64,000 nt of DNA from Ceratobasidium sp. AG-K (taxonomy: Eukaryota > Basidiomycota > Agaricomycetes > Cantharellales > Ceratobasidiaceae), in NCBI GenBank assembly GCA_037039685.1, contig JAWNGF010000003.1:3315571-3379570 (forward strand). The letters are read 5' to 3'. Shown here one piece after another: positions 2,487 through 64,000 of this stretch (the stretch's first letter is position 1; the number at the start of each line of letters is the position of its first letter). The notes under the pieces are model-generated. The model saw nothing but the letters and a program-made list of their open reading frames with translations. It searched no databases and was not told the DNA's origin. The translations under genes and the position numbers were made by a program.

Positions 2487-2498
2487 ACAAAACAAGCT
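2487..2498 (+). promoter_or_regulatory. Primer-binding site for self-priming
   Basis: ACAAAACAAGCT begins three bases after the 5' LTR and is the exact reverse complement of 2313-2324, at the predicted start of the element's own mRNA. A primer-binding site matching the mRNA 5' end rather than a tRNA is the arrangement known from Tf1 and sushi-type elements. The same pair occurs in copy 2 (58445-58456 with 58620-58631), and family 2 has a co-varying pair. Confidence 0.75.
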
Positions 2499-2506
2499 TA
2501 ACAATC

Positions 2507-4930: not shown

Positions 4931-4947
4931 CTGTGTGTGGAGAGACC
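4906..4947 (+). promoter_or_regulatory. Predicted -1 ribosomal frameshift signal between gag and pol
   Basis: The heptamer GGGAAAA (4906-4912) lies in the gag frame as G GGA AAA, the X-XXY-YYZ pattern. After a 5-nt spacer, GGTCTC (4918-4923) can pair with GAGACC (4942-4947); two more pairs form around a bulged A. The gag stop lies inside the loop. A -1 slip enters the pol frame directly. Copy 2 has the identical arrangement at 60623-60664. Predicted from sequence only. Confidence 0.7.
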
Positions 4948-38773: not shown

Positions 38774-39168
38774 GGATCCGTAATCAGCGATATATACTTT
38801 TCTACCGGAAATATAGCTGCAATGCACATTTATTTCCCTAAAGTACCAGACCGTCAATAAAAGCTAGCGTAAAGTCGGCGTTAGTTGAAAATAGTAGCGA
38901 GTGCAAGCAATTAGTGGGGTTGAGTAGGGCTTGGTACGCCCGTGCTAACTGAGCGAAGGATCGGTATCTGATTTCACTAAAATCTACTAAACCCACCAAA
39001 CCTCTAAAACAACCGAGATTAGCAGCGTGCATCTAGAATCACGCGGCCAAGTCAAACCTGTCTAAAAGTTACTTTTTCCGCACTAAAATCGCTGAAATAA
39101 GGGCGACCCTTTCTAACTGACTAACTGACTAATTTCAGCGAAATTAGTGGGGATTTTTTTTGCTGATG

Positions 39169-41054
39169 CATGTAGTCCTGAAATGGCGGTTGAGTGGCTT
39201 GGTCGTTCAGACCCGCCTTCAGATCTCCATACAAGCGCTCGATCGCTTTGGCCTATAGCAGTGGGGTTAAGGGAGATGATCAATGGCCAAGGAATAAGAC
39301 CTACCGCCGCTCGTTCGCCTAGCTTCATTCGTTTATCATCTATATCCTCAAAGCGTGCCAGGAGGTTTCGGTGCACCGTACTAATAACCTCCGAAATGAA
39401 TTCCTGTCCCACGGAATCGAGACCTGTTCTTTCGGCCCGCCATGCTGCTTTTGCTTTCTCGCATATCTTCTGGTCAGTCGCTGAATTCATATCCGAATCG
39501 CCGGATTTCATTGTTCTACCCCAGTGGAGCTGCCAGGCTTGATCCCACTCCCGAGCCCACTGATCGGGTTGGGCTACTTCCGCTGCGGCAGCGGCTTCAT
39601 AGGCAACGGCCCAAGCCACATCACAGTAATTGTTCCAGTTTCGTCCCTGGTAAGATAAGTCCTGTGGTTCCTTTGGGTACAAGTTGGTAACTTCTTTCAT
39701 TGCTGCTGTCCCCGCCGCAAGTGCAGCGGAAACTTTGGGGGCTTTGATAACAGAATCCCACACGCGGGAATCGATTTCTTTCTTAAGTGCGGGTGCTAGC
39801 TGTGATCGGAAAAGAGATCTCTGGAAGGGTATTTTGGTTGATTGACGGAGAGAAACCAGCGGCTTATACAACAGCTCCTTGAGCTTATCTTCATAAGACC
39901 TAGGATCAAGGATGTCATTTGCGGCGTTATCCGAAGCGCTGCCTGGGGAGTTACACGGTGTGGATCGTTTCGGCTTGAAGCTAATGAACCTGCTGGCCTT
40001 TGAAAGTTGTCCGATGGTCCGCGCACTGATCGATCTCTTTCCGCTGGTCGGACTCTTTGTACGAATCGCGGTAGCTGGTACGAGTTGCTTCAAGGAATCT
40101 TTGATGATTGTTGTCCAAGGTTTGTCCGACCCCGTCATCCTGCCCCAGTCGACTGCCCGGCGTGCTTTTTGAGATAAGCGCAGTGTCGGGCTGGATATCA
40201 ATGTAACTCAGCTCGTACTACTTGAGAGTAGAGAACTGCGCATATATATACCTGGATATCAATGTAACTACAGGTAATATAAGCAAATGAATATAAAAGA
40301 TAAAATCTAAACTATACCTCAGCTCGTACTACTTGAGAGTAGAGAACTGAGGACAAAATTTTTACCGAAGCGCGTGTCCATGTGGAACACAATCACGTGA
40401 TACGCATATATACACGTATAAGACTGAATATTCAACACGTGCAGCGACACAAGTTATTGTCCAAGAGAAGAAGTAGCAATTGTATAGAAATAGCTGGTAG
40501 CGATTGGAAAGGGGGTGGGTCTTTAAGCTATAGCAAGTTGCAAGAATGAGCAGTAAGTCTTCTCCACTCGGAAATGATAGACGGAGCAATATCTCAGCGG
40601 CCTCTACTTCGTCAACCTCGTCCTTGGTTGTGAGGATAAGAGCAGTGTCCTTGGCAGCTGTCCCTTCGTCAAGAGAGCCATAGGCGCGGGTTGCGTCATT
40701 GGCCATCCGGTCGAAGCGACACAGAGTTCCGCGGCGGTCATTGAGTGTGACAACGACAAACTCGTGTCGAAGCCCTTCCTTCTGCTTCCGGTACTCAAGT
40801 GAGACAAAGGTTTTAGTCGGTTGTTTCATATACCACTCGTGTGTTTCTCCAATTCCCCAGCCTAGCGAAAAGTCGAGCACGACTTGTGTTGGTGGGGCTT
40901 CTGGCCGGACTGAAGAGGTATGCATTAATGGATTCATGAATGGAACAAGTATGCGGATAGTAGGCGACGTCAAAAAACGATACGTAAGGGCCAAAGCTTA
41001 GGCCCCGGCGCGTCGAGAACGGGGCCGCTCGAGCTCGTGTTGACTGGTGGACAT
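39169..41054 (-). pseudogene. Gene X copy A, main part (interrupted by Plavaka, a 272-bp insertion and a stop)
   Basis: Homologue of the intact copy at 48670-50364. Minus-strand translation from ATG 41054 shows the same head, with TAA at 41000-40998 where copy B has CAA. It continues with the conserved core PPTQVVLDF, TKTFVSLEYRKQKEGLRHEF and LFLYNCYFFSWTITCVAAR. A 272-bp insertion (40437-40166) follows, then the C-terminal half (AYEAAAAAEVAQPDQW, AKAAWRAERTGLDSV), an intron at about 39303-39255, and part of the last exon up to the Plavaka insertion. The remaining C-terminus is at 28182-28365. It is not expected to make protein. Confidence 0.85.
40166..40437. mobile_element. 272-bp insertion with 5-bp duplication in gene X copy A
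   Basis: CGTGC flanks the insert (40161-40165 and 40438-40442) and copy B has no insert. A 30-bp word beginning CAGCTCGTACTACTTGAGAG occurs twice inside it (about 40208 and 40320). On the gene's strand, the junctions CAC|GTGTTG and AAAAAG|CAC supply a GT donor and an AG acceptor that use bases of the duplication. Splicing there would keep frame and add one codon. Confidence 0.7.
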
Positions 41055-41725
41055 GTCGGTTGGTTAAGAGGCGAAGGGCTAGTACGGCCAGTTCTTGGGC
41101 GGTTGGATGACCATGAATTTCAAATTGGTCGGTTGGCAATCACGATATGATAACCGACGTCGACATCTACCGTGCATATCACCTCAACTGATGTTCCATG
41201 CGGTCGTCCGTCGGGTGCTTGCAAACCGCCCTTATAAGATTTTATATCCCCGGTGTTTGAGTTCAGGCTAACTCAGTCCATTGCTGATACGCTAGGTCCA
41301 GCATGTTGGGGGAGGCGGATTGAACCTGTGGCCATAACCGGCCGCCTCGTGGTCGCCTCATGTTCACGTTGTGGCGTTCGATGCATGTCCAGGGCACTAG
41401 AACCAACTCGCTGACCGCTAATCTCCCCTCTGCCACTTCCTACCCTGTAGTGGTGAGTCGTAACTAACGTTTGCACAAATTTGACCAGGGTTGCCTGCGG
41501 GGAGTGCTCGATCAATTCCCAGATTCTCACACACAAAGCGACACCGATGGTACGTCCTCGGCGAGATACTATTCTATGCTCACTGAGCTTTGAAGGATCC
41601 ACCAATCCCCTCAAGGCCCCCAAGGCCCTTAGCGTTCGACACCCAGGATCCTCAGGTTTGTGCTGCGTCGGTGCTCCAATCATCGCGATAGTTGAGCTTA
41701 GCTGTATTTCCTCCTCGTTCCTCAG
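41055..41725. other. Divergent promoter region and uncertain 5' exons of micro-exon gene A
   Basis: Lies between gene X (minus) and the micro-exon gene (plus). A TATA-like TTATAAGATTTTATATCC is at about 41230. Candidate early exons with plausible splice signals are 41490-41549 (ACGECSINSQILTHKATPM-like, ending P-M before GTACGT) and 41596-41655 (DPPIPSRPPRPLAFDTQDPQ, ending before GTTTGT). The first coding exon could not be fixed, and I saw no clear signal peptide. Confidence 0.35.
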
Positions 41726-44700
41726 TCCCAAGGATTAGAAGCTATAGACAGTGTGATGATGTTGGGTGAAGAGAGTAATACTACTCAAGAGGTAGGCCAG
41801 ATTTTGACTAAGAACGTCAAAGGGCGTCTAACGAAAGTGTCGTAAAACTCATATGGTAGCGCGTAAGTCATACATCGTGTATTTACCAACGCATTCTCAA
41901 TGAAAGGAAACTGGGACACTAGATGGTTCGTTTGCAATTCAGCGAAGGATTGATCCACACTAACTCTGGTCGTTCGGGATAACTTCAAGAGGGTACGTGA
42001 ATTGGCATCGCCCCTGATAGACGAAGAAACACATAGCTGTAAGCAGGATGTGAGTATAGATTGACTAGACCACCCGGGTGCAGCGTTTATATATTCCAAC
42101 AGATGGTATGTGGGTGGGATGATGGCGATGGCAATGCTGAAGTCCAGACAATGTGCCGCTATGATAACAGATGGTACGATAGAGCGTCTCGTTTTGCGAC
42201 AGCCTTCGGCTGATATTGCAATCCCGAAATGGATAGAAAGTAAGTCTCATATATGACTATCTAGGCTACCTCGTTATCGTTGTTCCCAATTATAGATAGT
42301 ACGTATTCGCGCGAGCGGTCGCATGCCGAGTTTGAAGGTGAAATTATTGCAGAATGTATATATTCCGTTTGATACTCGCTGTGTCTTCGTTTTTCTGACT
42401 TGGAATGACCTCTCAACCGTTCTTAGTTGGTGCGTGTCTTATTTCTCGTTTTCAGTCGGAAGCAACTATCACTACGTGCGCTAAGCACTCACATTCTAGG
42501 CCGTACGTCCATAAATCAAATCACATAGGTTACGGTGAAAAGACTTATGGAAACTGTGCGTAGGGCGTGCAAGCCACAATCTAGCCGACATCACAATAAC
42601 TGATGTGAATGAATTCTTGCTGCTATAGTGATTGTGAGTTTCTCCTATGGTTAGCAGAATAGCTTACATAGAAATGATCAGTATATAGGAAGTGAGTGAG
42701 CCGCTACGTACCCGTGATTCGGCAAGGTATGTATGCCTTGAATGTCTTGTAAAATGAACTAAGCACGAGTAGGCAGCGTACGCGAGCCGTTGTTGTTCGA
42801 GAGGTCCTATAATGGGAACTTAGCTGATGCCAATTTGATAGGAGGCAAGTAAAGCGGCGTCAGGATGTCATGGCGTGTTTACGAATTGGATCCACAGAGG
42901 GTGAGCTAAATAGGGTGATCGTAGGACGGTAAGGGAGCGCGAACCATGCAGCGATTGAAAATGACGAATGGTTCAAGGGAGTTGAATGAGACTCTTGTTG
43001 CGGTATCCCAGGCTGTATGTTTATTTCTTATTAATTCAGGAACTTGGGAATTGAAGCAGTTGGGATCACTCAGGAGGTGTGCATTTTGCGACGATATAGC
43101 CAAGAACAAAGCCTAACTGGTGGAGGGATTTTAATTAGGAGGTACGACGTTGGGACTGCAAAGAGAGCGAACACACTGACGATTGGTTGGTGAACATTGC
43201 AGACTGTGAGCCTGTTTTTTGCTGTGTGCAATATAGCCAACGGGGACGAGGATTGTATACGGGATCCTAGAAGGTATTAGTACAATATTTCGTGCTATAA
43301 ATGCACACCTGATGTGTGTGAATCGGAACGTACCTCGTAGCCGGTGCGCTCTGGGTATCAAATGCGATTGCAGGTTAACGATTTAATTGCTTGTGTTTGG
43401 CATCTCAGCCGGTGCGTAGACGTGGTTATCGAATCGACTGATGACCCAGCTGACGACTTGATCACTCGCATTTCATATCTCAGGCGGTGCGTAGACGTGG
43501 TTATCGAATCGACTGATGATCCAGCTGACGACTTGATCACTCGCATTTCATATCTCAGGCGGTGCGTAGACGTGGTGATCGAATCGACTGATGACCCAGC
43601 TGACGACTTGATCACTCGCATTTCATATCTCAGAGGGTGCGTAGATGTGGTTATCGAATCGACCAATGACCCAGCTGACGACTTGATCACTCGCATTTCA
43701 TATCTCAGTTGGTGCGTAGACGTGGTGATCGAATCGACTGATAATCCAGCTGAAGACTTGATCACTCGCATTTCATATCTCAGTTTGTGCGTAGATGTGG
43801 TTATCGAATCGACCAATGACCCAGCTGACGACTTGATCACTCGCATTTCATATCTCAGGATGTGCGTAGATGTGGTTATCGAATCGACCAATGACCCAGC
43901 TGACGACTTGATCACTCGCATTTCATATCTCAGTTGGTGCGTAGACGTGGTGATCGAATCGACTGATGATCCAGCTGACGACTTGATCACTCGCATTTCA
44001 TATCTCAGGCGGTGCGTAGATGTGGTTATCGAATCGACCAATGACCCAGCTGACGACTTGATCACTCGCATTTCATATCTCAGTTGGTGCGTAGATGTGG
44101 TTATCGAATCGACTGATGATCCAGCTGACGACTTGATCACTCGCATTTCATATCTCAGGCGGTGCGTAGATGTGGTTATCGAATCGACTGATGACCCAGC
44201 TGACGACTTGATCACTCGCATTTCATATCTCAGGCGGTGCGTAGATGTGGTTATCGAATCGACTGATGACCCAGCTGACGACTTGATCACTCGCATTTCA
44301 TATCTCAGAGGGTGCGTAGATGTGGTTATCGAATCGACCAATGACCCAGCTGACGACTTGATCACTCGCATTTCATATCTCAGTTGGTGCGTAGACGTGG
44401 TGATCGAATCGACTGATGATCCAGCTGACGACTTGATCACTCGCATTTCATATCTCAGGATGTGCGTAGGCGTGGCTATCGAATCGACTGATGATCCAGC
44501 TGACGACTTGATCACTCGCATTTCATATCTCAGGCGGTGCGTAGACGTGGTTATCGAATCGACTGATGATCCAGCTGACGACTTGATCACTCGCATTTCA
44601 TATCTCAGGCGGTGCGTAGATGTGGTTATCGAATCGACTGATGATCCAGCTGACGACTTGATCACTCGCATTTCATATCTCAGTTGGTGCGTAGACGTAG

Positions 44701-46222
44701 TTATCGAATCGACCGATGATCCAGCTGACGACTTGATCACTCGCATTTCATGTCTCAGGAGGTGCGTCTGCTGCCTTCATTGACTAATATTCTCACCAAC
44801 TCTTATGCCGTTCTCACTTCCAATCGTAGTGGGTACGTTCACCGCGTTTCAGGCAATACGTCAATTAAGTGGTCTTCGTCCGGTCGCTCGCTCAGCATAA
44901 GGTGCGCAAGTGGTTATTCTTCTATTTTCATGCAGGTTGATCATTAGTCTGCTCACTTTCGCAACTTCAGAATGTGGGTACATGGGCATATCTGCCGATG
45001 ATGGCATCTGATCCGTTGGCTGTTGCCAATTGATTTAAGAATGTGCGTCCGCGCACCTTTCCCGGGCAAACTCACCATTGGCAGTTGCTCATTTGTTTCT
45101 TGGTGCCCTGGCCTTCAGGTTGTGCGTATGTATTCCACATGGGTTGGCAACGGCGACTGATATGCTTGTGTCGAATTTTATAGTGGGTAAGTATAGGATG
45201 GTTTTTTGGTCAGATGGTGGTTTAAGCTTGGTACGGGACACATCAGAATGTGCGTGTCTGATGGCCATGCATTAATGGTACTCGCTGACTGGTTGCAAAC
45301 GCTCATTCAACTTACTAGAAGGTATGTTGGGTGGTTAGAGGGTTGGACCTGGCAATCCTGACGACGCGGCATCGCCATCTAACCCTCTAGGAGGTATGCA
45401 AATTTCGTCTTCGGAGTAATAATTCAAGCTAATCACGTAACAACCCGATGTGGCCTTTCAGAAGGTACGTGGGACGGTGTCTTTGTCTGAGCACATGACT
45501 GACGTACTTGAGGACTCGATCTAACTTTCAGCGGGTGCGTGTGTGCCAGTCTCTCGCGGCTCAGTCTTTGCCTCCAACAGGCGACTTTTACTTGGTGTTT
45601 TAGCGGGTGAGTTCGTGGCGCTTTCGTCTTGTGGATGGGTGCCGAGGCGCCGATAATTATCGTCTGATATGCTAGCTGGTGCGCGGATTCCCCTCACAAG
45701 ATGAGGTTGTTCGCTAACGACTTGACGACCGGTATTTGGTGCCTCAGGAAGAGGGATTAAAGGCTCGCGGCCCACAAGGCCAGGCAGTCGATAATCAACC
45801 TTCGACGTCTCAGCAAGGTAGGTATCAGTGGCCGTTCAGTTATGGCATGTGTTGACCTCCTGCGGCTGTGTCCTAAAGTCAAGGACGAATCGACTCCAGA
45901 ACTGTGAACGACCAATCAACGTTCAAACTCCAGCGAGTACGTACCAACCTCCTCTCAAGTACCCATGTTCTGACAGTTCCCAAAGACCTCAAGACGAACA
46001 TGTGGGGTGGTGGCTATGGAATATGCACTTGGAATGATACATGCAAATCTGATATGGCAGGACAGGATCCGGAGGCCTCGTAAACGACCACTGGGTGGAT
46101 CGGACGGCAGGGGGGCATGGGCTCGTCTGTCGGGCGATGAGGCAATGGGTCCTGATCCCTTATTTATGGTTGTGTCGAACCCGCCTCAGGGAGGCGTGAG
46201 CTTGCGATGGCCGGTCTATTGA
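41726..46222 (+). CDS. Micro-exon gene A: about 52 single-codon exons
   Basis: A 66-nt exon (41726-41791, ends NTTQE) is followed by a long series of AG-NNN-GT sites spaced 53-81 nt apart, each NNN being a three-base exon: CGC 41860, ATG 41923, AGG 41990, GAT 42047, ATG 42103, ATG 42171, AAA 42237, ATA 42296, AAT 42353, TTG 42427, GCC 42500, GGC 42564 and so on to CCG 43341. A 75-bp tandem array follows (43409-44761), then TGG 44830, CATAAG 44896 and eleven more triplets to CTG 45676. Conventional exons 45748-45817, 45884-45936 and 45986-46222 follow in matching phase. Every triplet read as a codon avoids stops except an unresolved 5-nt exon at 42629 (TGATT). The array reads PAARLFDLALAARLDAALE, then WHKNNVWNKEKRRL joins EEGLKARGPQGQ. 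Product unknown, probably helical, with a basic tail (RIRRPRKRP). The 5' end is unresolved. Confidence 0.6.
43409..44761 (+). repeat. 75-bp tandem array A, 18 units: 72-nt intron plus variable triplet
   Basis: Eighteen units of exactly 75 bp. Each unit is GTGCGTAGACG...CATATCTCAG (72 nt, with a CTGAC branch-point-like word about 33 nt before the AG) plus three bases. The 72 nt are nearly invariant. The three bases between AG and GT take the values CCG, GCG, AGG, TTG, TTT, GAT and GAG. Because 75 is a multiple of 3, both strands show long open frames of 25-residue repeats, which I take as by-products. Confidence 0.9.
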
Positions 46223-48669: not shown

Positions 48670-50364
48670 CTACGACACGCATACAAGGGCCAAGTCCTTT
48701 TCTTGCAAGACGTTCAGAGTTTTCACCCAAATCTCTTGCATCGCGCTTTCGATTTTTTCCAAGGCTTCTTCGGGTGATTTGAACCCAATACTTCCCAGCC
48801 TCTCGCAATGATCTAGAATCCGCATCTGCATGTATTCCTGTAATAGCGGTTGGGTAGGCCGGTTCCTTAAGCCTGCTTTTGCATCAGCATAAAGTCGTTT
48901 GATTGCTTTGGCCTAAAATTCTAGCCGGTCAGTGAATAATAGGTTGATCATTGTAAATACACGTACCGAAGCTCGTTCGCCCAGTCTCAATCGCTTGTCA
49001 TCGATATCCGGAACACGTTCAAGAGCAGCCTGACCCACGACATCGACAAACTCGGAAACATATTCTTCTCGTACAGAATCGAGACCTGTTCGTTCGGCCC
49101 ACCATGCCGCTTTCGCTTGTTCGCATACACCCTGCCCAAGACGTGCACTGAATTCTGCATCTCCGGTCTTCATTTTTGCACCCCAATGTAGCTGCCACGC
49201 TCGATCCCACTCCAGGTTCCATTGATCGGGTTGGGCGACTTCCGCGGCTGCTGCTGCTTCGTACGCCACTACCCAAGCTATATCACAAAGACCGCTCCAT
49301 TCGAAGCCCTGATGGTTTAAGGTTTCTGCCTTTGCTGGGTACAAGCTTGTAACTTCACTCATTGCCTTCATACCAGCTTTCAGAGCGGCGGAGGCCCTGG
49401 TAGCTTTGGCAGTAGCCTCTCTGAAGTGACTATCAATGGCCCTCTTGAGCCCGGGTGCTAGCTGGGATCGAAGGAGAGAATACTGGAAGGAGTCGTCGGT
49501 AACATGAAGACCCAGTAATGACTCCTGCAGTAGCTTCTTGAGCCGTTCTTCGTAGAACCTATCTTCCGTGAGGTCATGCGGCGTAGACGATGTTGACTTG
49601 TGTCTGACGAGCTTGCTTATCTTTGGAAATCGCGCGGAAACTGCCATACGGCTCGAGGATCTCGGTACAGGCTGCTCAGGGGAATCTTTTTCTAGTTTCA
49701 CCCAATGTTTCTTTGGTAGTCTTATCGTATTCCAGGAAACTGCCCTCCGCGCCGCGACACAAGTAATCGCCCACGAGAAGAAGAAGCAGTTGTATAGGAA
49801 GAGGCTGTAGGAGCCAGCCAGAGGGTGGCTTTTTATGCTATAGCAGGTTGCTAGAATGAGCGATAAGTCTTCCCCGTCAGGAAATGAGAGGCTGAGTAAC
49901 AGCTTGGCGGACTCGACTTCGTTGATCTCGGTGTTTGTCGTAAGAACAAGCGCCGTGTCTTTGGCAACTGTTCCCGCTTCAAGAGGAGCATATGCACGCG
50001 TAGCGTCATCAGCCATCCGGTCGAAGCGACAGCGAGTTCGATCTCGGTCGTTGAGCGTCACCACGATAAATTCGTGTTGAAACCCCTCCTTCTGCTTCCG
50101 ATACTCAAGAGATATAAAAGTTTTGGTGGGCTGTCTCTTGTACCACTCATATGTCTCTCCAGCATAAAAACTAGAGGGGAAGTCGAGTACGACTTGCGTT
50201 GGTGGAGGTTCGGGCCGAACACATGATGTGAGCATTAACCGGTTTATGGTTGGAGCGAGCGCCCGGATGGTAGGTGACATCAAAAATCGATATGCAAGAG
50301 CTGTAGCTTGATTATTAGGGTGGTGCAGCCGACGCGGAATGAGTTCGTGTGTACTCGTAGCCAT
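48670..50364 (-). CDS. Gene X copy B: intact protein with H-E-F and N-C-x-F-F-S-W motifs
   Basis: Two exons, 50364-48967 and 48912-48670, with a 54-nt GT-AG intron (546 residues). The N-terminal half holds TKTFISLEYRKQKEGFQHEF and LFLYNCFFFSWAITCVAARR. A His near HEF and a Cys in N-C-F-F-F-S-W recall papain-fold hydrolases or acyltransferases of the LRAT/NlpC type, but this is only a motif-level suggestion. The C-terminal half is helical and Ala-rich (VAYEAAAAAEVAQPDQW, AKAAWWAERTGLDSV) and ends in EIWVKTLNVLQEKD. It is head to head with micro-exon gene B about 0.5 kb away. I do not recognise a named family. Confidence 0.7.
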
Positions 50365-50905
50365 GCTAGCAGGTGGAGAGCCCCGTGGTTGCGTTTGGAT
50401 GCTGGCTGATGTCTTTTGCCCTCTGGTCGGATGGTGGATTTCAAATGGAAGCGAGGGTCTTGATTGGCAATACTAATCTAGCCAAAGGGTTTCACGCTTC
50501 CGTAACCGGTTGCCTCGTGATGGCCTCATGCGGTTCGTCTTGTGGCGTTCTCGGGGCGATGCAGGCTCTGGGCACTAGATCCTGCTTACTCGCCGCGTCC
50601 CATTCCTCTCTGCTACTTCCTTCAGTTTGCTTGTGAGTCGTGACTAACCTTTACACAAACTTGACTAGGGTCGCGCGTGGGGGAGTAGCTGGCCAACCCT
50701 CAAAGCTCTCATATACAAACCGGCACCAATGGTGCGCTCTCCGTGAAATGTCATCCTATGCTAATCGACCTTTGATGGAACTAACGCGATTCAACACAAT
50801 GCGCTGGTGTCCGACGCGTATGGTCCCCAGGTGCGTGTGGTATGGCCACGATGCTCCAATCATTGCGATAGTTGAGCTTAGCTGTATTTCCTCCTCGTTC
50901 CTTAG
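50365..50905. other. Divergent promoter region of module B
   Basis: Counterpart of 41055-41725. It contains possible 5' exons of micro-exon gene B, for example the 63-nt open segment at about 50670-50732 before GTGCGC and the open segment ending CCCCAG before GTGCGT at about 50831. One acceptor used in copy A (GAAG at 41595) is GATG here. Confidence 0.3.
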
Positions 50906-53900
50906 TCGCAAGGATCAGAGACTATAGACAGTGTGATGATGTTGGGTGGAGAGAGTAATACTACTCAAGAGGTGGGTCAGATTTTGACTAAGAACGTCGA
51001 AAGGCGTCTAACGAAAGCCTCATTAAACTCATACGGTAGCGCGTAAGTTATACATTGTGTATTTAACAGTGCATTCTCGATGAAGGGAAACTGGGACACC
51101 AGATGGTTCGTTTTCAATTCAGCGTAGGATTGATCCACACTAACTCTGGTCGTTCGGAATACCTTCAAGAGGGTACGTGTATTGCCATCGTCTCTGTTAG
51201 ACGAAGAAACGCATAGCTGTAAGCAGGATGTGAGTGTAGATTAACTAGACCACCCGGGTGAAGTGTTTATATATTCCAACAGATGGTATGTGGGTGGGAT
51301 GATGGAGGTGGCGATGCTGATGCCCAGACAATGTGCCGCTATGATAACAGATAGTACGATAAGGCGTCTCGGTTTGCGACAGCCCGCTGCTAATATTGCA
51401 ATTGCGAAATGGATAGAAAGTAAGTACTCATATGTGACTCTCTAGGCTGCCACGTTATCGTTGTTCCCAACTATAGATAGTACGTATGCGCGCGTGGTCG
51501 CATGCCGAGTTTGAAGGCGGAATCATTGTAGAATGTATATATGCTGTTTGATACTCGCTGTGTCTTCGTTTTTCTGACTTGGAATGACCTCTGAACCGTT
51601 CTTAGTTGGTACGTGTCTTATTTCTGGTGCTTAGTCGGAAGCAACTATCAGTACGTGCGCTAATCAGTCACATTCTAGGCCGTACGTCCATAAATCAAAT
51701 CATATAGTCGCGGTGAACGGACCCATGGAAACTGTGCGTAGGCCGTGCAAGCCACATTCTAGCCGATACCACAATAGCTGAGATGAATGAATTCTCGCCG
51801 CTCTAGTTATCGTAAGTTTCTCTCGGGGTTAGCGGAAAAGCTTACATTGAAATGAGCAGTATATAGGAAGTGAGTGAACCTCTACATACCCGTGATTCGG
51901 CAAGGTATGTATGCCTTGAATGTCATGTAAAATGAACTAAGCACGAGTAGGCAGCGTGCACGAGCGGTTATTGTTCGAGATGTCCCATAATGGGAATTGG
52001 GCTAATGCCAATTTGATAGGAGGCAAGTAAAGCGGCGTTGGGATGTCATGGCGTGTTTACAACTTGGATCCACAGAAAGTGAGCTAAATAGAATGATCGC
52101 GGGACGGTAAGGGAGCGCAAACCATGCAGCGATTGAAGATGACGAAGCGTTGAAGGGAGTTGAATGAGACTCTTGTTGGGACATCCTAGGCTGTATGTGT
52201 ATTTCTTATTGATCCAGGAACTTGGGAATTGAATCAGCTGGAATCACTCAGGAGGTGTACATTTTGCGACGATCAAACCAAGGGCAAAGCCTAACCGGTG
52301 GAGGGATTTTAATTAGGAGGTACGACGTTGGGACTGCAAAGAGAGCGAACACACTGACGATTGGTTGGTGAACATTCCAGACTGTGAGCCTGTTTTTTGC
52401 TGTGCGCAAAATAGCCAACGGGGACGAGGATTGTGTACGGGATCCTAGAAGGTATTAGTATAATATTTCGTGTTATAAATGCACACCTGATGTGTGTGAA
52501 TCGGAACGTACCTCGTAGCCGGTGCGCTCTGGGTATCAAATTCGATTGCAGGTTAACGATTTAGTTGCTTGTGTTTGACATCTCAGCGGGTGCGTAGACG
52601 TGGCCCTCGAATGGACGGATGATCCAGCTGACGACTTGATCACCCGCATTTCATACCTCAGTCGGTGCGTAGATGTGGTTATCGAATCGACTGATGGCCC
52701 AGCTGACGACTTGATCAATCGCATTTCGTATCTCAGATTGTGGTGAGACGGGGTGATCGAACCGACTGATGATCCAGCTGACGACTTGATCACCCGCATT
52801 TCATATCTCAGGAGGTGCGTAGACGTGGTGATCGAATCGACTGATGATCCAGCTGACGACTTGATCGCCCGCATTTCATACCTCAGTCGGTGCGTAGACG
52901 TGGTGATCGAATCGACTGATGATTCAGCTGACGACTTGATCACTCGCATTTCATATCTCAGTTGGTGCGTAGACGTGATTGTCGAATCGATTGATGATCC
53001 AGCTGACGACTTGATCACTCGCATTTCATATCTCAGAGGGTGCGTAGACGTGGTGATCGAATCGACTGACGGTTCAGCTGACGACTTGATCACCCGCATT
53101 TCATATCTCAGGAGGTGCGTAGACGTGGTGATCGAATCGACTGGTGATCCAGCTGACGACTTGATCACTCGCATTTCATATCTCAGTTGGTGCGTAGACG
53201 TGATTGTCGAATCGATTGATGATCCAGCTGACGACTTGATCACTCGCATTTCATATCTCAGAGGGTGCGTAGACGTGGTGATCGAATCGACTGACGGTTC
53301 AGCTGACGACTTGATCACCCGCATTTCATATCTCAGGAGGTGCGTAGACGTGGTGATCGAATCGACTGGTGATCCAGCTGACGACTTGATCACTCGCATT
53401 TCATATCTCAGTTGGTGCGTAGACGTGGCGATCGAATCGACTGATGATCCAGCTGACGACTTGATCACTCGCATTTCATATCTCAGATCGTGCGTAGACG
53501 TGGTTATCGAATCGACTGATGATCCAGCTGACGACTTGATCACTCGCATTTCATATCTCAGTATGTGCGTAGACGTGGTGGTTATCAAATCGACTGATGA
53601 TCCAGCTGACGACTTGATCACTCGCATTTCATATCTCAGGAGGTGCGTAGACGTGGCCATCGCATCGACCGATGATCCAGCTGACGACTTGATCACTCGC
53701 ATTTCATATCTCAGAGGGTGTGTAGACGTGGTTATCGAATCGACTGATGATCCAGCTGACGACTTGATCACTCGCATTTCATATCTCAGATCGTGCGTAG
53801 ACGTGGTTATCGAATCGACTGATGATCCAGCTGACGACTTGATCACTCGCATTTCATATCTCAGTATGTGCGTAGACGTGGTGGTTATCAAATCGACTGA

Positions 53901-56049
53901 TGATCCAGCTGACGACTTGATCACTCGCATTTCATATCTCAGGAGGTGCGTAGACGTGGCCATCGCATCGACCGATGATCCAGCTGACGACTTGATCACT
54001 CGCATTTCATATCTCAGAGGGTGTGTAGACGTGGTTATCGAATCGACTGATGATCCAGCTGACGACTTGATCACTCGCATTTCATATCTCAGGGGGTGCG
54101 TAGACGTGGTGATCGAATCGACTGATGATCCAGCTGACGACTTGATCACTCGCATTTCATATCTCAGAGGGTGTGTAGACGTGGTTATCGAATCGACTGA
54201 TGAGCCAGCTGACGACTTGATCACCCGCATTTCATATCTCAGATGGTGCGTAGACGTGGTGATCGAATCGACTGATGATCCAGCTGACAACTTGATCACT
54301 CGCATTTCATATCTCAGTTTGTGCGTAGACGTGGTTATCGAATCGACTGATGATCCAGCTGACGACTTGATCACTCGCATTTCATATCTCAGATCGTGCG
54401 TAGACGTGGTTATCGAATCGACTGATGATCCAGCTGACGACTTGATCACTCGCATTTCATATCTCAGTATGTGCGTAGACGTGGTGGTTATCGAATCGAC
54501 TGATGATCCAGCTGACGACTTGATCACTCGCATTTCATATCTCAGGAGGTGCGTAGACGTGGCCATCGCATCGACCGATGATCCAGCTGACGACTTGATC
54601 ACTCGCATTTCATATCTCAGAGGGTGTGTAGATGTGGTTATCGAATCGACTGATGATCCAGCTGACGACTTGATCACTCGCATTTCATGTCTCAGGAGGT
54701 GCGTCTGCTGCCTTCATTGACTAATATTCTCACCAACTCTTATGCCGTTCTCCCTTCCAATCGTAGTGGGTACGTTCACCGCTTTTCAGGCAATACGTCA
54801 ATTAAGTGGTCTTCATCCGGTGGCTCGCTCAGCGTGAGGTGCGCAAGTGGTTATTCTTCTATTTTCATGCAGGTTGATCATTAGTCTGCTCACTTTCGCA
54901 ACTTCAGAATGTGGGTACATGGGCATATCTACCGATGATGACATCTAATCCGTTGGCTGTTGCCTATTGATTTAAGAATGTGCGTCCGCGCACCTTTCCC
55001 GGGAAAACTCACCATTGGCAATTGCTCATTTGTTTCTTGGTGTCCTGGTCTTCAGGTTGTGCGTATGTATTCCACATGGGTTGGCAACGGCGACTGATAT
55101 GCTTGTGTCGAATTTTATAGTGGGTAAGTATAGGATGGTTTTTTGGTCAGATGGTGGTTTAAGCTTGGTACGGGACACATCAGAATGTGCGTGCCTGATC
55201 GCCAAGTATTAATGGTACTCGCTGACTGGTTGCAAACGCTCATTCAACTTACTAGAAGGTGTGTGGGGTGGTTAGAGGGTTGGACCTGGCAATCCTGACG
55301 ATGCGGCATCGCCATCTAACCCTCTAGGAGGTATGCAATTTTCGTCTTCGGAGCAATAATTCAAGCTAATCACGTAACAACTCAATGTGGCCTCTCAGAA
55401 GGTATGTGGGACGGTGTCTCTGTCTGAGCACATGACTGACGTACTTGAGGACTCGATCTAACTTTCAGCGGGTGCGTGTGTACCAGTCTCTCGCGGCTCA
55501 GTCTTTGCCTCCAACAGGCGACTTTTACTTGATGCTTTAGCGGGTGAGTTCGTGGCGCTTTCGTCTTGCAGATAGGCGCCGATAATTGTTGTTTGATATA
55601 CTAGCTGGTGCGCAGATTCCCCTCACAAGATGTGGTTGTTCGCTTACGGCTTTGCAACCGGTATTTGGTGCCTCAGGAAGAGGAATTGAAGGCTCGCGAC
55701 CCACAAGGCCAGGCAGTCGATAATCAACCTTCGACGTCTCAGCAAGGTAGGTATCAGTGACGGTTGGGTCATGGCAAGCATTGACCTCCTGCGGCTGCGC
55801 CCTAAAGACAAGGACGAATCGACTACAGAACTGTGAACAACCAATCAACTTTCAAACTTCAGCGAGTACGTACCAACCTCCTCCCAAATACCCATGTTTT
55901 GACAGTTCCAAAAGGCCTCAAGACGAAAACGTGGCGTGGTGGCTATGGAATATGCACTTGGAACGATACATGCAAATCTGGCATGGCAGGACAGGATCCG
56001 GAGGCCTCGCAAACGACCACTGGGTGGCTCGGACGGCAGGGGGGCATAG
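50906..56049 (+). CDS. Micro-exon gene B: about 62 single-codon exons
   Basis: Paralogue of 41726-46222. It begins with the 66-nt exon 50906-50971 (MMLGGESNTTQE) and continues with the same series of AG-NNN-GT sites. Differences from A keep splice signals: CAG to TAG, GTGCGT to GTACGT, GTGAGT to GTAAGT. Several triplets change (ATG to ATA, AGG to AAA, GGC to GCC). The 75-bp array has 28 units and reads RSIESLRELRELIYERIYER, then GRMFIYERE; WRENNVWNKEKRRL follows and joins EEELKARDPQGQ in phase. In the array the other two reading frames of the joined triplets hit stops. The last exon 55915-56049 ends at TAG, earlier than in A. The 5-nt exon is TTATC here. The product is unknown and should be strongly helical, perhaps a coiled coil. 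Confidence 0.6.
52587..54698 (+). repeat. 75-bp tandem array B, 28 units
   Basis: Same unit as array A. Three units are 78 bp because of an extra GTG inside the intron. A higher-order block whose triplets read I-Y-E-R occurs three times. Twenty-nine triplets lie between AG and GT. As in A, intron sequence is conserved while the triplet varies, and long open frames exist on both strands. Confidence 0.9.
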
Positions 56050-58160
56050 GCTCGTCTGTCGGGCGACGAGGTAATGGGTCCTGATCCCTTAGTTATGGTT
56101 GTGTTGAACCCGCCTCAGGGAGGCGTGAGCTTGCGATGGATAGCCTATTGAATGAAATATTTATTCTAGGCTACGCGTCTAAGCTTGTTTGAGATAGCAC
56201 ATGCGGCGGACATGAGCTGCATCTCACGTCGTTTCAGTCGGAACGCTGTGCTGACCAATACACATAGTTGCTGACGTCATCGGGGTTGGCAGGCAAGCGC
56301 CACAAGCTTGATCCTGCCCATTATAACTGTCAAGGAAACACTGACCGAGGACAAGTACCCCGAACACAGGCACTTTCCTCCCACCCTTCCTCGCCGTTTC
56401 CAAGCACAACAACGGCTTCTCGGCAGTTAATCGCGCGTTCATGACTCTTGCGTCAACGACATTGGGCGCCGTCGGGAGCCTGCTGGCCTTTGTCGATGGC
56501 GAGTCCTATGCCGATTTACGTTCGGGTTAGAGGCAAGGCTAATATGACTCAAACTTAGCTATCAGGCGATAGTTTTGTCCCTGTCCTTGTTGCTACATCC
56601 TTGCGTCAGAGCCACGTGCGCAATGGTCCGAAGAGTCACAGCGCTCGGGATTGGAACCCAAGTGTCTCTGGCACGGGCTTCCCTCCGCTTGTCTTGCGAA
56701 ATACCCCGATGCCTCCAGTGAACCCACCGCGTCACTCTTCTCACCATTTTGCTGCCAGGCTAAACACTCCGTGTACGCTGCTCGTTGGCGGCAATGCGAC
56801 GTCATACTTTCTAGCCAGTGAAACTCCGGTGCAAGACAACAATCACTACACACAGATCTCAGATGTAGTCTTGCGAAGCTGCTCCGCCTCCCCCAACGTG
56901 TGTCATGAACAACCTGCAACCTCGCTCAGGGATTGTTGCATTCGATCATCAGTCGTCGGACCCTGGATCTGCAGATTATCTGGCACGCATCGGTCTGGGG
57001 ACATATAGGTGAGCACCACGATGTTGTGTGCCAGTCTTATGCTAATTTCCGTCGTTTCGGGATGCGGCCTGTTCTCGCCAAAATTCCATCGTAGCGCCAG
57101 GATGGGCCTGCGCTAACGTTTTGATTCATCAAGCTTTATACGATATGATATCTCCATCCCCAACGGGAGGATGCGTTGGACTGGGACCGGTCGCCAAAAT
57201 GTGTTCCAACAAGCGCTGATCGAGATATTGGGCTGTACTGGAGGTCGAGGTGAGTGCGTAATCCATTTCTAGTGCCATGACCTCACCTTCTAGTAACCCC
57301 AGAGCTAAGTCAGGACCGAGATGTTCCAGCTATGGCCAGACGTGAGTTTTTACGACAATCACCTTCATGTTTACGCCATACCGAGTTTTTTACTTAGTAT
57401 GGCAGTTTGTAAAGTTCCAATTATATCGAGTTCACCGCGCTCTCCGCCTTGGTCATGTGGAACACTTTGGTAGATTCACACCGGCTCGGAATCCGAAGAG
57501 ACCCGGGGTGCGCTATGAGGCTTTTGAGACCAAGGGTTCAAGGAAGAGGCAAGTGATCAACAGCTCAGTTCCACATCGAACGCTAACGCGGGCACCAGCT
57601 GCAGTTAGTGCTCTCAAGGTTGCAAAAGTCCCTCAACAGGGGTACGTGGGAAAACACGGGGTTCCAAGGACTTGTGCTGTCAGGGTTAATGCGAGATCGA
57701 TACTAGAAAGGCAGATACCATCCCCTAGTATATTCCTGTTCGGGCAACCTGACGCACTCTCTGTAGTTCTGGATGATGCATTTCCCGTGGGACGGGACTC
57801 GAATTCTTGCAAGGACGCGCGTGAAGGGGTTCCTGACCAGTAGCACCGATCCGAATTTGGGCGACAGGGCAAAGGACTCTTTGTGAAGATGTCGCTCGGG
57901 TCAAAGAGTGTAACGCTGAGTACCGATAGGGCTTCTATTTGTTTGATGTTGGCTATGAGTGCGCATGTAGCTTGTAGTCGAAATGATGTACTTGGCTGAA
58001 CCCGGAAAGCTTTAGGTTTCTGGGTGGCGTGCGCTTTTTCTTTTTTTTTATAATCCTGATTTTGTGTCTTTCGGTTTTACACCATACAAGACATCGTACA
58101 ATAAAGATAATAGCTCCCTTGTGGAGATTCGACCCCACTATACCCGGCTCGACGTGCAGG
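56050..58160. other. Intergenic region, end of the duplication and possible exon remnants
   Basis: Similarity to the other module continues to about 56660. Further right, about 57127-57241 reads SIPNGRMRWTGTGRQNVFQQ and then ALIEILGCTGGRG before a GTGAGT donor; this may be an exon of an unknown gene or a remnant. An open frame of 158 codons at 57367-57843 has no domain I recognise. Confidence 0.3.
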
Positions 58161-58646: not shown

Positions 58647-60647
58647 ATGTCTATCCAAGAAGACGGAGGATCACGCCCCTCATCCACTATATCAACAAGA
58701 AGAGGACCCAGTCGGGCAGCAAGGCCTACAGGATCACTAAACGAGCAAGATATTGCACAAATTCAAGCGGGAGGCCCTGCTTGATCACGCTCCCAAAGCC
58801 AAACATCAATGCCGGGAGCTTTTGGCATTGCTGACATGACAACTGTACAAGAGGAAGAAGCCACTATCACGAATAGGGAACCAGGAGATCTCACAAATGA
58901 CCCCACTCTGGCTGCAATTCGCATTTCAACTGGAAGTCCAGGACCATCACGTCCCTTGTGGCCACTAGGGACTAGGAGACAATTCTTCTCTCCCCAACCT
59001 GAAGCTCATGGGGGCGTGTCACTTGTCCCCATTAGACCTCCTCCTACACCACACATCCCCAATGTCCCCACAGTTCCCCAAATTGGAGGAACCATCACCA
59101 ACGCAGGACCAATTCCAGTGGCTTCCCAGCCAGTCACACCAGCAATTCCAGCACCACCATATGTTCCACAGGGTTACTCCGGGCAATCGGCTCCGGTACA
59201 ACAAAGCACCGGCGATCCAGGGAGCTCGAGTTCAAGTTCCAGCTCTAGCGGCAGGACTGTGATCAGTAATCTAGACGACCTGGACGACCTTCTAGAAGGA
59301 AGACACAACACCACCCTTAGGGTTATAGACGGAATGAGAGTCACTATAGATCGAAGACTTAGCGGCCTAGAACAGGCCACACAAGTACTAGCAAACAACC
59401 AGCAGATCTTTAACGATTCCATCAACACCCTACAAGGCACCTTGACGGACATTCTGAACTCGGCAAGAAATGGCGAACATAATTCTTTCCTAGTTGGTCA
59501 AGACGTAACCCGCCTTCGAAATAAGGTTACCAACACTCAGGGACTAGTGAACAATATACGCGAAGAACTCAACACTACCAGACAAGGGCAACTTGAGTGG
59601 AACGAGGCAGTAACACAAGGACTAGAAACCTTACGACAGGAAGGAACCTCCTTCACTACCAAAATCACAGAAGTCCAGGAAACGATCAACAACATGCGAG
59701 AAGAAATGGACAAAGCATCCCTGCACGGGATCCCCTCCAGGCGATCAAATTCTCCACCACATCCAGATGCAGAATCTACCAGGATCGACGAATTAGAACT
59801 AAGAATCCAACAACTGACCGAGAACCCAAACATTGGGAGCGGACCACGTCGTCCCAAGGTGACCCGGCCAGAAGCCTTTGACGGAAAGAAAGGAGAAGGT
59901 GCCGAAATGTTCATCACACAAATGGAGAGTTAATTTTTACGCCTAGGCAATCAATACACTTCCAATGAAGAAAGAATCCGCAAAGCTCTAGCAAACTTCA
60001 AATCCGAGAACAAGGCCGCCACTCACTGGGCACAAGTACTTTTACGATCGCTTAACCAAAGGGAAAATAACCAAAACCTTGCCTCATGGGAAAGCTTCAA
60101 GACACACTTCATGGAACAATTTAGCGACCCTAACAAAAAGGCAAAGGCCGAAATCGATATCCGGAAGTGCAAGCAGATCAATTTGGTAGCAAATTATGCT
60201 TCTGAGTTCCGTTACTTATTGGTCGATGTCAACTGGGGACAGGAAGCGCTGATCAACCAATTCAAGGAAGGACTGAAGCCTGAAGTAAAGACCGAACTAG
60301 CGCAATTCGAATTGACCCTGATTAACGAGGACGGAACGGAGCGGGAGCTGTCACTAGACCGGTGGATCTCTATCGCAATCTCTATTGACCAGAAATTGCA
60401 GCAAATAAAGACCTCTACAGGGAAGAAGACACCTCAAGCAACCGCTAGCGGACAACCCTCTACAAAGCGACTACCCGACGAAGTTTACAAAGCTAGGATA
60501 GCAACCAACCGCTGCCTAAAATGCGGACAGGAAGGACACCGCTCATTCAAATGCCCATCCAAGGAATGGATAACAACGGAACCTAGCATTAAAGGAAGGG
60601 AGGCAACAATCAGAGAAGACTTGGGAAAAGAAGGGGTCTCCCTCTAA
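58647..60647 (+). pseudogene. gag: Gag of chromovirus copy 2, two in-frame stops
   Basis: Frame from ATG 58647 (MSIQEDGGSR) to TAA 60645-60647, with TGA at 58782 and TAA at 59931. Same domain order as copy 1: Pro-rich head, Asn/Gln-rich helical part, capsid-like region (FKTHFMEQFSDPNKKAKAE) and zinc knuckle (CLKCGQEGHRSFKC). It has no solo LTR insertion and so provides the empty site for 4433-4889. The gag end overlaps the frameshift signal at 60623-60664. Confidence 0.85.
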
Positions 60648-60664
60648 CTGTGTGTGGAGAGACC
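60623..60664 (+). promoter_or_regulatory. Predicted -1 frameshift signal, copy 2
   Basis: GGGAAAA (60623-60629) is in frame as G GGA AAA. After a 5-nt spacer, GGTCTC (60635-60640) can pair with GAGACC (60659-60664). Identical in arrangement to 4906-4947. Confidence 0.7.
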
Positions 60665-63600
60665 AAGAAACCGGCAACGGAAACAATGTACTTTAGAGCG
60701 ACAAATGAATCTACCATTGTTTACGCAAACGTTGCCGGAATCACAGAACCTATCCCAACCCTCATCAATTCTGGAGCATCAAAGAACTTCCTGGACATTT
60801 CGTGGGCTTGATCCAACAACATTCCACTCATAGAACTCTCCACTCCTAAAAGAGTAATTGGAATCCAAGGGAAAGAACTCTCTCACCAAATACGTTTCAA
60901 AGCAAGGCTGGAACTAGAAGTAGAGGGAAGAACTTTCAAACAAGTCTTCTTCGCGATGCCTACTGGAGAAACTAAACTTATTCTCGGACTGGAATGGTTA
61001 GAAGAATCGAACCCTGTCATCGATTGGAAAACGAAGCACATATCATGGCGGACAGAAGCCATTCAAGCAGGGACGGCCTCAATAGACGACCTGCCCGAAG
61101 AATTCAAGGAATTTGCCGACGTCTTCAGCAAAGAAAAATTCAAAAGAATCCCGGATCATCGCCCATACGACTGCGCCATCGACTTCAAGGAAGGAGCTGA
61201 ACTTCCGAAACCAGCCAGACCTATCCCACTCTCTCCGGCAGAGTCAATTGCACTGAGAGAATACTTGGATGAAGAAATCGCAGCAGGGAAAATCCGACCA
61301 AGCAAATCACCCATTGCATCACCTTGTTTCTTTGTCAAAAAACCGATCGACCCCAAAAACCCAGGGGCGGTACGCCAACTACGGCTTGTTCAAGATCTCA
61401 GAGGAGTAAACGCCATTACAAAGGACGACAGATTCCCAATGCCCCTGATGGAAGATCTCTTGGATAAAATCAAGGACGCAAAAATTTTCTCCAAAATCGA
61501 TTTGCGCATGGGTTTCAACAATATCAGAATCAGGGAAGGAGACGAATGGAAAACAGCTTTCAGAACAAAAGAAGGACTGTTCGAATATGTTGTCATGCCG
61601 TTTGGACTAAAAAACGCGCCCGCCATATTCCAAAGATATATGAACCACATCTTCCATGATCTCATCGACGTATGTGTCATAGTATATATCGACAACATAC
61701 TGGTCTTCTCTAAGGACAGAAGTCAACATACCGTGGATGTCAGGAAAGTGCTAAAAATCTTGCTGGAAGAAAATCTATTCGCAAAGCTTCCAAAATGCGA
61801 ATTCTTTGTCACCAAATTGACATATACTGGACTTGGAATCAGCGATTCAGGCATCTCAATGGAGGAAGAAAAAGTCAAGGCAATAAAGGAATGGAAGGAA
61901 CCAAGAACGGTCAAACAAGTTCAGGCGTTCCTAGGATTCGCAAATTTCTACAGAAGATTCGTCCCAAATTTCAGCCGTTTAGCAAAGCCCCTGACAACCT
62001 TAACAAGAAAGGAGAACAAATGGGAATGGGGAAACGATCAACAGGAAGCTTTTGAGGCCCTGAAAACGGAAATCAGCAAAGAACCTACTCTACGCCATCC
62101 AAATCCTAACAAACCCTTTTTCCTGGAAACAGATGCAAGTGGAGTAGCAATGGGAGCAATCTTGTCGCAAAGACAAGACGACGGCTACTTACACCCTATT
62201 GCTTTTTTTTCAAAGTCTTTTAACAAGGCTCAACTGAACTACAACGTCCATGATAAAGAACTTATGGCTATCATAGAATCTTTAACACATTGGAGGCTAT
62301 ACCTTGAAGGAACAAGGGACCCTATCACCATCTACACCGATCATAGGAACCTACAATTCTGGAAGGAAGCAAGAACATTCAACCGTCGACACGCAAGATG
62401 GCACCCATTGCTTGCTTCCTATAACTTTGACATCATATATCGCCCTGGAATCCTGTCATCAAAACCGGACCTGTTGTCAAGACGATCAGACCATGAGGAT
62501 ATCCCGACGCCCAAACAAGTTATGATATCTGTCAAAAGGTTCAAAGGATTTATGGGACAGATAGACACAAACATCATAGAGTCTATCAGGGAGGCTCAGG
62601 AAACAGATGAAGGATTGGCACAAATCAAAGAAATCTGCAAATCAAGGGAAACGTTACCAAAAACCCTACAACACAGCGCAAGGGATTATGATTTCAAGGA
62701 GGGACTATTATGGTTCAAGGGAAGGATCTACGTACCAGAAGATAAGGAAGCCAGACTGGCCATCATGCGGGTCCACCACGACTCAAAAATTGCGGGACAT
62801 CAAGGACAGGCTAGAACACTGGAACTAATATCAAGGAGATACTTTTGGCCAGGAATGAAGCAGAGCATAAACAGATACGTGGAATCCTGTGAGACCTGCC
62901 AACGGACAAAGGGATCAAAGCAAATAGTACCGATCAAGCCTCTAGAGATTCCAAAAGGACCGTGGGAAGACATAGCGTTCGACTTCGTAGTGAAGTTGCC
63001 AAAATCCAGAGGATCAGATAGCATCTTAGTAGTGGTGGACCGATTCTCAAGAATGGCACACTTCATACCCTGCAAAGAATCCCACACAGCAACCGACCTT
63101 GCAAATCTTTTCATCACGAATGTCTGGAAACTGCATGGTTTTCCAAAGAGCACAATCTCAGACCGAGGAACCACTTTCAATTCCAAACTTATGAAAGCCA
63201 TTTATGAAAAAATTGGAACTAACCCAGGTTTCAGCACTGCCTACCACCCCCAAACAGATGGAGTAACGGAGAAAATCAATCAATGGATGGAAGGCTGGCT
63301 ACGATCGTTTGTCAATTACCAGCAGGATGATTGGGCGGACTTATTACCGATTGCGGAATTCAGCTATAATCTACAGAAGCACCGCGTAACAGGTAGTTCC
63401 CCTTTCGAAATTGTCTACGGGAGGGAACCACTGTGGAACATCTCAGCAGAAGAATTGGCGGTTCCAGAAGCAAACAACATCACAGGAAAATGGCGCAAAA
63501 TTCACGACAAAGCAATTGCATCAATGGAAACCCAAAGGCTCCCAGAAGAAGAACCAAAGAACGAGTACCAAGAAGGAGATCTAGTATGGCTGCTGGGAAA

Positions 63601-64000
63601 AAACATTCAAACAAAAAGACCGTCGAAGAAACTGGATAACAAAAAGCACGGACCATTTGTTGTGAAACGAAGAATAGGGTCACACGCTTATGAGCTCGAG
63701 GTGCCAGCAACAATGAGGGTGCACCCTGTTTTCCACATTGACTTGCTCAGCCCTTACAAAGAAGACACAGAGTTCAGCCGAAACCAACCCCGACCACCGC
63801 CGATCATAACAGAAGGAGGGGAAGAAGAATACGAAGTAGAGAAGATTTTGGACTGGAAAAAGACAAAGGATGGTCTTTTCTACAGGGTCAGATGGAAGGG
63901 CTATGGGAGTGAAGAAGACACAGAACAAAGGGCGGAAGATTTTGGTCACCTGTCAAAAATCATCAAGGACCTTCTACGCCGACACCCCGAAGCTCCCACG
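60629..64000 (+). pseudogene. pol: Pol of chromovirus copy 2, runs off the right edge; two active-site changes
   Basis: Reading in the -1 frame, the only stop is TGA 60809-60811; from there to the window edge the frame is open (over 1,060 codons). Domains: protease (here LINSGA, with the catalytic Asp replaced by Asn at 60767), reverse transcriptase (YIDN instead of YIDD, Asn codon 61694), RNase H (LETDASGVAMG), integrase (SDRGTTFNSKL, YHPQTDGVTEKINQ) and chromodomain (YEVEKILDWKK to YRVRWKGYG). The open length looks good, but both the protease and the reverse transcriptase should be inactive. The ORF3 and 3' LTR lie outside the window. Confidence 0.88.

Follow-up and report, generated by a model that had tools for sequence, protein, structure and literature searches.

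Two probable tandem genes with codon-sized exons

The DNA examined here is a 64,000-nucleotide (nt) window of contig C3 in the 53.6-Mb, 17-contig genome of the basidiomycete Ceratobasidium sp. AG-K, and its plus strand carries two long runs of closely spaced splice-site motifs. Judged from the sequence, these runs are likely, at a probability of about three in four, to be two tandem copies of a protein-coding gene, here called gene A (41726-46222) and gene B (about 50906-56151), with approximately 58 and 68 short U2-type introns, respectively, and with exons that are mostly one codon long. Mostly one-codon exons are the best-fitting reading because the splice sites are conserved, the introns carry branch words, and the central array and the 3' side share an open phase. 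An earlier note on this DNA had proposed that nearly every residue of the central protein has its own exon. The proposal fits these three lines of evidence best, and its weak part is the 5' side, where the predicted exons are irregular.

The plus strand of gene A between 41792 and 45747 forms a chain of AG-NNN-GT with spliceosomal signals. The strict motif YAG-N3-GTVNGT was found 88 times on the plus strand of the window, with 84 occurrences inside the two gene stretches, and 11 times on the minus strand. With other spacings (0-2 or 4-12 bases), the motif was found only 1-9 times each on the plus strand. As a background, we sampled both strands of twenty 10-kb stretches of the same genome (200 kb from 15 contigs, 40 strands). 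The longest chain under lax settings (introns of 45-115 nt) had 37 members on the plus strand of the window, 5 on its minus strand, and no more than 6 on the sample strands, and the sample strand reaching 6 had mostly poor donors. With a tighter donor, the longest chain was 27 in the window, at most 3 on the sample strands, and 4 on the other strand of the window. The flanks of gene A, taken without the array, contained 18 strict sites, whereas 500 dinucleotide shuffles gave 0.31 on average and never more than 4. The chain over 4.5 kb described in the earlier note is thus real, although its exons are not all of 3 nt (31 of 36 in the flanks). A general excess of the 3-nt spacing was not found in the 200-kb sample (33 hits, versus 19-37 for lengths from 0 to 15), indicating that this spacing is no general habit of the genome.

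The branch word CTNAY, which the earlier note had reported for many introns, was present in 23 of the 38 flanking introns, compared with 10.0 ± 2.5 in shuffles (maximum of 17, n = 500), and the narrower CTRAY was present in 18 of the 38, compared with 5.3. With GT-AG ends, a branch word and conserved ends, these introns have the features of U2 spliceosomal introns at the level of sequence. No structural RNA was matched at Rfam gathering scores within the window.

Because the observation in the earlier note rested on gene A, gene B served as an independent test. A second array with the same 75-bp unit was detected by Tandem Repeats Finder at 52580-54704, inside a second copy of the whole gene. 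The aligned stretches of the two copies were 92.7% identical on the 3' side and 87.5% identical on the 5' side, the latter including more diverged upstream DNA. All 18 strict flank sites of gene A were retained in gene B. The AG and GT dinucleotides of these sites were unchanged in 36 of 36 cases, compared with 274 of 319 other such dinucleotides in the same stretches (P = 0.008, Fisher's test), and the 54 exon bases of these sites were identical in the two copies. In a fuller parse, in which gene B decided a few ambiguous sites, the flanks retained all 76 of their splice dinucleotides in both copies. None of the 152 splice bases was changed, whereas 186 of 2138 intron interior positions (8.7%) were changed or gapped (P of about 1.8e-5 for the dinucleotides, Fisher's test). 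At donor position 3, five exchanges between the copies each kept a purine. Several introns differed in length between the copies by amounts not divisible by 3 (69 to 61, 54 to 52, and 56 to 57 nt), which argues against read-through. It is very probable that the chain of splice sites is real and maintained.

Structure of genes A and B

The first exon recognized in gene A, from the sequence and the alignment with gene B, is placed at 41726-41791 (+), although it may begin further upstream; its open frame MMLGEESNTTQE contains ATG ATG at about 41756-41761. The DNA immediately before it (41669-41725) has a CCAAT word and a pyrimidine-rich run, which by eye are possibly a core promoter rather than an intron end. 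Between the copies, 61 of 66 positions were equal in the first exon, 54 of 57 in this preceding stretch, and 158 of 242 alignment columns further upstream. The first exon is followed by the 5' run (41792-43408, +) with 24 introns and 23 microexons under the preferred parse, of which 19 are of 3 nt, TGATT and GCAGC are of 5 nt, and ATGGTAT and GAGGCAA are of 7 nt. The choice of the 5- and 7-nt exons is inferred from the frame and from conservation in gene B. The array (43409-44761, +) has 19 triplets, from CCG to GAG, and 18 introns of 72 nt, giving the unit of 75 bp. The 3' run (44762-45747, +) has 14 introns and 13 microexons (12 of 3 nt and CATAAG of 6 nt) and leads to exons of ordinary size. 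These are placed at 45748-45817 (+), reading EEGLKARGPQGQAVDNQPSTSQQ, at 45884-45936 (+), assigned from the sequence, and at 45986-46222 (+), the last exon of the earlier model, a candidate reading frame with a TGA stop at 46220-46222.

In total, gene A would have 58 introns, consisting of 38 in the flanks, 18 in the array and 2 further introns. Its 36 flanking microexons comprise 31 of 3 nt, 1 of 6 nt, 2 of 5 nt and 2 of 7 nt. These counts replace the earlier figures of some 33 surrounding introns and about 54 introns removed in all, and the flanking introns are 49-111 nt long, a wider range than the 53-81 nt given before. It had also been stated that skipping any exon keeps the frame. This is correct for the 3- and 6-nt exons and incorrect for the 5- and 7-nt exons.

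In gene B, the first exon (50906-50971, +) is the counterpart of 41726-41791, and both the 5' run (50972-52586, +; 24 introns) and the 3' run (54699-55676, +; 14 introns) align one-to-one with those of gene A. The array (52587-54698, +) is longer, with 29 triplets and 28 introns, of which 25 are of 72 nt and 3 are of 75 nt, so that gene B has about 68 introns. Its last exons are at 55677-55746, 55813-55865 and about 55915-56151 (+), with an in-frame TAG at about 56047. An alternative open frame with the cysteine pattern GYGICTWNDTCKS overlaps the last exons of both copies (45877-46083 and 55806-56084), and this frame had no Pfam match.

Reading frame and predicted product

We then considered whether the microexons join in phase, as had been claimed for all triplets and the surrounding open exons. 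On the 3' side, the 13 microexons share one open phase and spell WHKNNVWNKEKRRL in gene A and WRENNVWNKEKRRL in gene B, and the next exon, at 45748 in gene A, is entered in its open phase. The array triplets are open in the phase of the 3' run in both copies, reading PAARLFDLALAARLDAALE in gene A and RSIESLRELRELIYERIYERGRMFIYERE in gene B. Only one of the three triplet phases is open in gene B, which is the one carried by the 3' run into the exon at 55677, and two of three are open in gene A. The claim is therefore upheld for the array and the 3' side, and it fails for the 5' side, which has no open path made of 3-nt exons only; a parse of that kind was rejected. Splice models built from one copy gave no path, or chose exons that differed between the copies. 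When exons of 3 to 7 nt were allowed, the best path open in both copies was RMRDMVYENKFGRLIEAARQRAEETKP in gene A and RMRDMVYKNKFGRLIEAARQKAEETKP in gene B, using the exons TGATT, GCAGC, ATGGTAT and GAGGCAA. This parse is preferred because it makes two differences between the copies, TGATT/TTATC and GGC/GCC, silent.

The predicted product is a short, charged protein whose middle part is probably helical (MMLGEESNTTQERMRDMVYENKFGRLIEAARQRAEETKPPAARLFDLALAARLDAALEWHKNNVWNKEKRRLEEGLKARGPQGQ... in gene A). No solved structure related to the spliced product was found. Taken with the conservation of the splice sites, the phase results make it quite probable that the gene is spliced into a message of mostly one-codon exons.

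The central array of introns and codons

The array units were cut at CTCAG, so all introns end in CAG by construction. Independently of this cut, all 46 array introns start with GT, and 45 of 46 carry the branch word CTGAC. The introns are nearly identical to each other, with a mean diversity per site of 0.04 in gene A and 0.07 in gene B, whereas the diversity per triplet site is 0.28 to 0.73. Among pairs of units with identical introns, the triplets differed in 7 of 14 pairs in gene A and in 4 of 14 pairs in gene B, and they often differed at two or three positions (TTG/GAT and ATC/TAT). The block ATC-TAT-GAG-AGG occurs three times in the array of gene B, and none of the 48 array triplets of the two copies is a stop codon. 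The diversity, the identical-intron pairs and the repeated block point to units that were duplicated in blocks, with introns kept alike and codons turning over. The turnover of units is seen from the comparison of units and copies, and its cause is our inference. The turnover of codons may reflect selection for variety or an exchange that spares the codon.

The three 75-nt introns of gene B (53565-53639, 53868-53942 and 54471-54545) have a 3-nt insertion at the same place, and each lies between TAT and GAG. A genome search with the array pattern, allowing up to 3 mismatches, gave 38 matches, all in genes A and B. Descent of the outer introns from an array unit was also considered and is suggestive at most, with one 5' neighbor at a z of 4.1 and z values of 2.5 to 3.7 for five introns among the 14 on the 3' side. 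In this comparison, all 820 pairs averaged 0.23, and the best pair (4.5) joined two other introns.

A relic copy and the neighboring genes

A neighboring gene, placed divergently from the microexon gene, was duplicated together with it (39113-40997 and 48913-50472, both on the minus strand). Its first copy is split into two separate frames by a stop or an intron. Its second copy has no Pfam domain, and it had four protein relatives among 8000 scored candidates; the three named ones are all from Rhizoctonia solani. The family of this gene has 55 matches in the genome, some of which are pieces of one gene.

A search of the genome with the DNA of either flank returned only the loci of genes A and B, and this search is blind to diverged copies. 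Because the neighboring gene belongs to a large family whose best relative lies on contig C11, a stretch of this contig was inspected (C11:1896001-1903000). Beside that relative, at approximately 1980-2190 of the reverse complement, we found a diverged relic of the microexon gene. Its local alignment with gene A over two introns scored 32, whereas 150 shuffles reached at most 25.5 and 40 unrelated strands at most 22. The microexons of the relic are ATA, ATG, AAA and ATG, in the order of those in gene A (ATG, ATG, AAA and ATA), with introns of 57, 63 and 60 nt. Three of the four donors are kept, and the last is lost. Further on, the same region has DNA in common with the retroelement-like ends of the window. 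Another member of the neighbor family, on contig C7, was examined for an adjacent microexon gene and rejected as a candidate. No chain was present there, and the alignment score of 25, versus 20 in shuffles, is attributed to chance because copy B does not follow it and because it is little above unrelated strands (maximum of 23.5, n = 40).

Elsewhere in the window, frames that by eye resemble Gypsy-type retroelement genes lie at both ends (2462-8065 and 58785-64000). At 16387-20549, a long TPR gene has a match to the Pfam sensor family TPR-S, and the frame after it resembles a CHAT protease by eye. The TPR-S family is known from conflict systems.

Comparison with known systems

The primary paper on the NACHT-ANK (nank) genes of the black truffle Tuber melanosporum is reportedly that of Iotti et al. 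2012 (Fungal Biol 116:261).

The earlier note knew of no gene with dozens of successive 3-nt exons, and the truffle genes are such a precedent. The passages concerned speak of tens of codon-sized microexons (PMC3689799), of 3-bp microexons that diversify sensor domains through alternative splicing (PMC10197012), and of dozens of 3-bp mini-exons (PMC9815663). The same papers and a further one place them among NOD-like receptors, in an expanded ascomycete family (PMC3689799, PMC4986451, PMC10197012, PMC9815663). The likeness, as a pattern of sequence, lies in the tens of codon-sized exons, namely the 31 flanking microexons of 3 nt and the 19 array triplets of gene A. As far as these descriptions go, the present case differs in being from a basidiomycete, in having two copies and a relic, and in having a central tandem array of intron plus codon. 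NACHT matched 89 places in the genome (89 of 270 candidates scored) and ankyrin matched 18 (27 of 27 candidates scored), and none of these lies in the window. Neither domain was found in the spliced products, nor in ten open frames located within or next to the two copies. The gene described here would act in the manner of the nank genes, but within these searches it is not one of them by domain. No microexon chain above 2 was found at the NACHT and ankyrin places inspected (3 of 89 and 3 of 18, with about 1.5 kb on each side).

Other known cases share single features with genes A and B. The micro-exon genes of Schistosoma have exons of 3-81 bp among introns of up to 5 kbp, according to the account consulted (PMC10526429). 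Many very short exons are common to both, whereas the introns here are short (49-111 nt in the flanks, 72-75 nt in the arrays), and the microexons are nearly all of one codon. Plant microexons of 1 to 15 nt (PMC8831610) and the 3-bp exon of human RPS24 (PMC11162997) are cases in which single exons of 1-5 nt are spliced in vivo, with one to three per gene in the passages concerned, compared with dozens consecutively here. Fungal NOD-like receptors are described as having internally conserved repeats with hypervariable positions (PMC4986451). Homogeneous repeats, variable codons and a changing repeat number occur in both systems, although the homogeneous part is coding in those receptors and would be intronic here. 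Introner-like elements of fungi are described as near-identical introns within one genome (PMC4457414). Near-identical introns are again shared, and in the searches with array and flank DNA they were not found dispersed over genes.

Alternative explanations

Several observations weigh against two functional genes of mostly one-codon exons. The looser branch word YTNAY is less telling, with 28 of the 38 flanking introns compared with 19.8 in shuffles, which reach 28. One array unit of gene B has the poor donor GTGGTG. In the full parse, the microexon bases changed in 8 of 123 cases, about as often as the introns. On the 5' side, no open path with a consistent frame through the two copies can be built from 3-nt exons only, and the preferred parse, which scores 245.5, is not unique; when exons of 1-12 nt are allowed, other open paths reach a higher score (250.6), and a path with 3-, 5- and 6-nt exons scores 239.0. 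The spliced product, searched under an earlier parse of residues 15-19, had no protein relative among 577 scored candidates. The helical amphipathicity of the array peptides was not above that of shuffles (P = 0.48 for gene A and 0.07 for gene B). The relic aligned weakly with gene B, scoring 22.5 versus 21.5 in 10 shuffles. The last three exons had a pN/pS of 0.74 and an in-frame TAG in gene B, with no amino-acid constraint seen.

This pN/pS value and the TAG would also be expected if both copies were decaying remains of a microexon gene, preserved through a recent duplication and making no protein today. The 5' frame, which closes only with irregular exons, and the third copy on C11, which is clearly degraded and lies near DNA resembling retroelements, are in line with such decay. 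We nevertheless regard it as unlikely: 76 of 76 flank dinucleotides are kept in both copies while the introns differ by 8.7%, the donor-position-3 exchanges all keep a purine, and no array triplet is a stop. The similarity of the array introns, together with triplets that differ at two or three positions between identical introns, could alternatively result from an introner-like invasion, in which copies of one intron were inserted between the codons of an old exon and the triplets are old coding sequence. However, insertion would not pick every third base, and genes A and B differ in both their codons and their number (19 versus 29). The array intron is found only in genes A and B and the flank DNA only at two loci, with the limit that the latter search missed the diverged relic on C11. 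The different codons and numbers and the threefold ATC-TAT-GAG-AGG block point instead to tandem duplication of units, and the invasion is very unlikely.

The array could also be a single ordinary exon encoding repeats of 25 residues (CVDVVIESTDDPADDLITRISYLxx) in which two residues are hypervariable, in the manner of fungal NOD-like receptors, whose WD, ANK and TPR repeats are internally conserved. The 75-bp unit is a multiple of 3, and one plus-strand frame is open for 480 codons in gene A and 657 in gene B, although the minus strand is open too (472 and 725 codons), as 75-bp repeats often allow. Hypervariable positions in a homogeneous repeat are described as the signature of such receptors (PMC4986451), and a slight synonymous excess was seen (5 of 11 changes in gene A and 11 of 31 in gene B, with 49 of 207 possible changes being synonymous). 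Eleven Pfam families matched the array frame at E values up to 1, and 5 of the 11 exceeded curated cutoffs as whole-protein sums (the best being MIT_ATG1, with 77.6 bits versus 27). No single stretch passed, however, and the families are mutually unrelated, as occurs when a chance match is summed over repeats. The array frame of gene A had no homolog at an E value of 0.01 among 21 candidates. The frame closes within approximately 70 bases before and 25 bases after the array of gene A, while the AG-N3-GT spacing continues in other sequence. One unit of gene B has a stop in this frame, and the 657-codon open stretch starts only downstream of that stop. In addition, a good acceptor and a good donor directly flank the variable triplet. 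We rejected translation straight through the array into such a repeat protein on the grounds of the frame closure, the unrelated Pfam sums, the missing homologs and the placement of the splice sites, and we consider it highly improbable.

Possible mechanism and significance

If genes A and B are spliced into mostly one-codon exons, each short intron would be recognized singly across the intron, and a 3-nt exon would join a growing exon as its neighbors are removed. Unequal exchange between near-identical introns could then add, remove and reorder single codons, making the codon the variable part. The truffle genes suggest by analogy that the arrangement would most likely serve to make one segment of a recognition or interaction protein variable, perhaps, as a guess, also through exon skipping. 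That the array serves to vary one protein segment is a tentative idea that we think may well be wrong, and a role in the recognition of self or of other organisms is a guess from the same analogy. Somewhat more speculatively, the locus might be a codon cassette array, in which intron plus codon is the unit of inheritance and recombination and the introns, kept alike by exchange, supply the homology. Single residues of one helix would thereby be inserted, deleted, reordered and replaced, and exon skipping would add further forms per cell. Such an array would lie outside the truffle receptors and would have originated independently.

The idea of dozens of 3-bp exons is already known from truffles, and what looks new in this sequence is the center, with near-identical introns and varying codons. 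A codon cassette array, if it exists, would be exon shuffling at single-residue resolution. A gene of this kind would stretch the known capacity of the spliceosome, with 56 introns over about 180 coding bases in gene A, and would escape gene finders that expect longer exons. It would also show a route by which a protein can be changed residue by residue through recombination in introns. The truffle case would then be less of a curiosity, and the question would be whether fungi have repeatedly used microexon arrays to make proteins variable.

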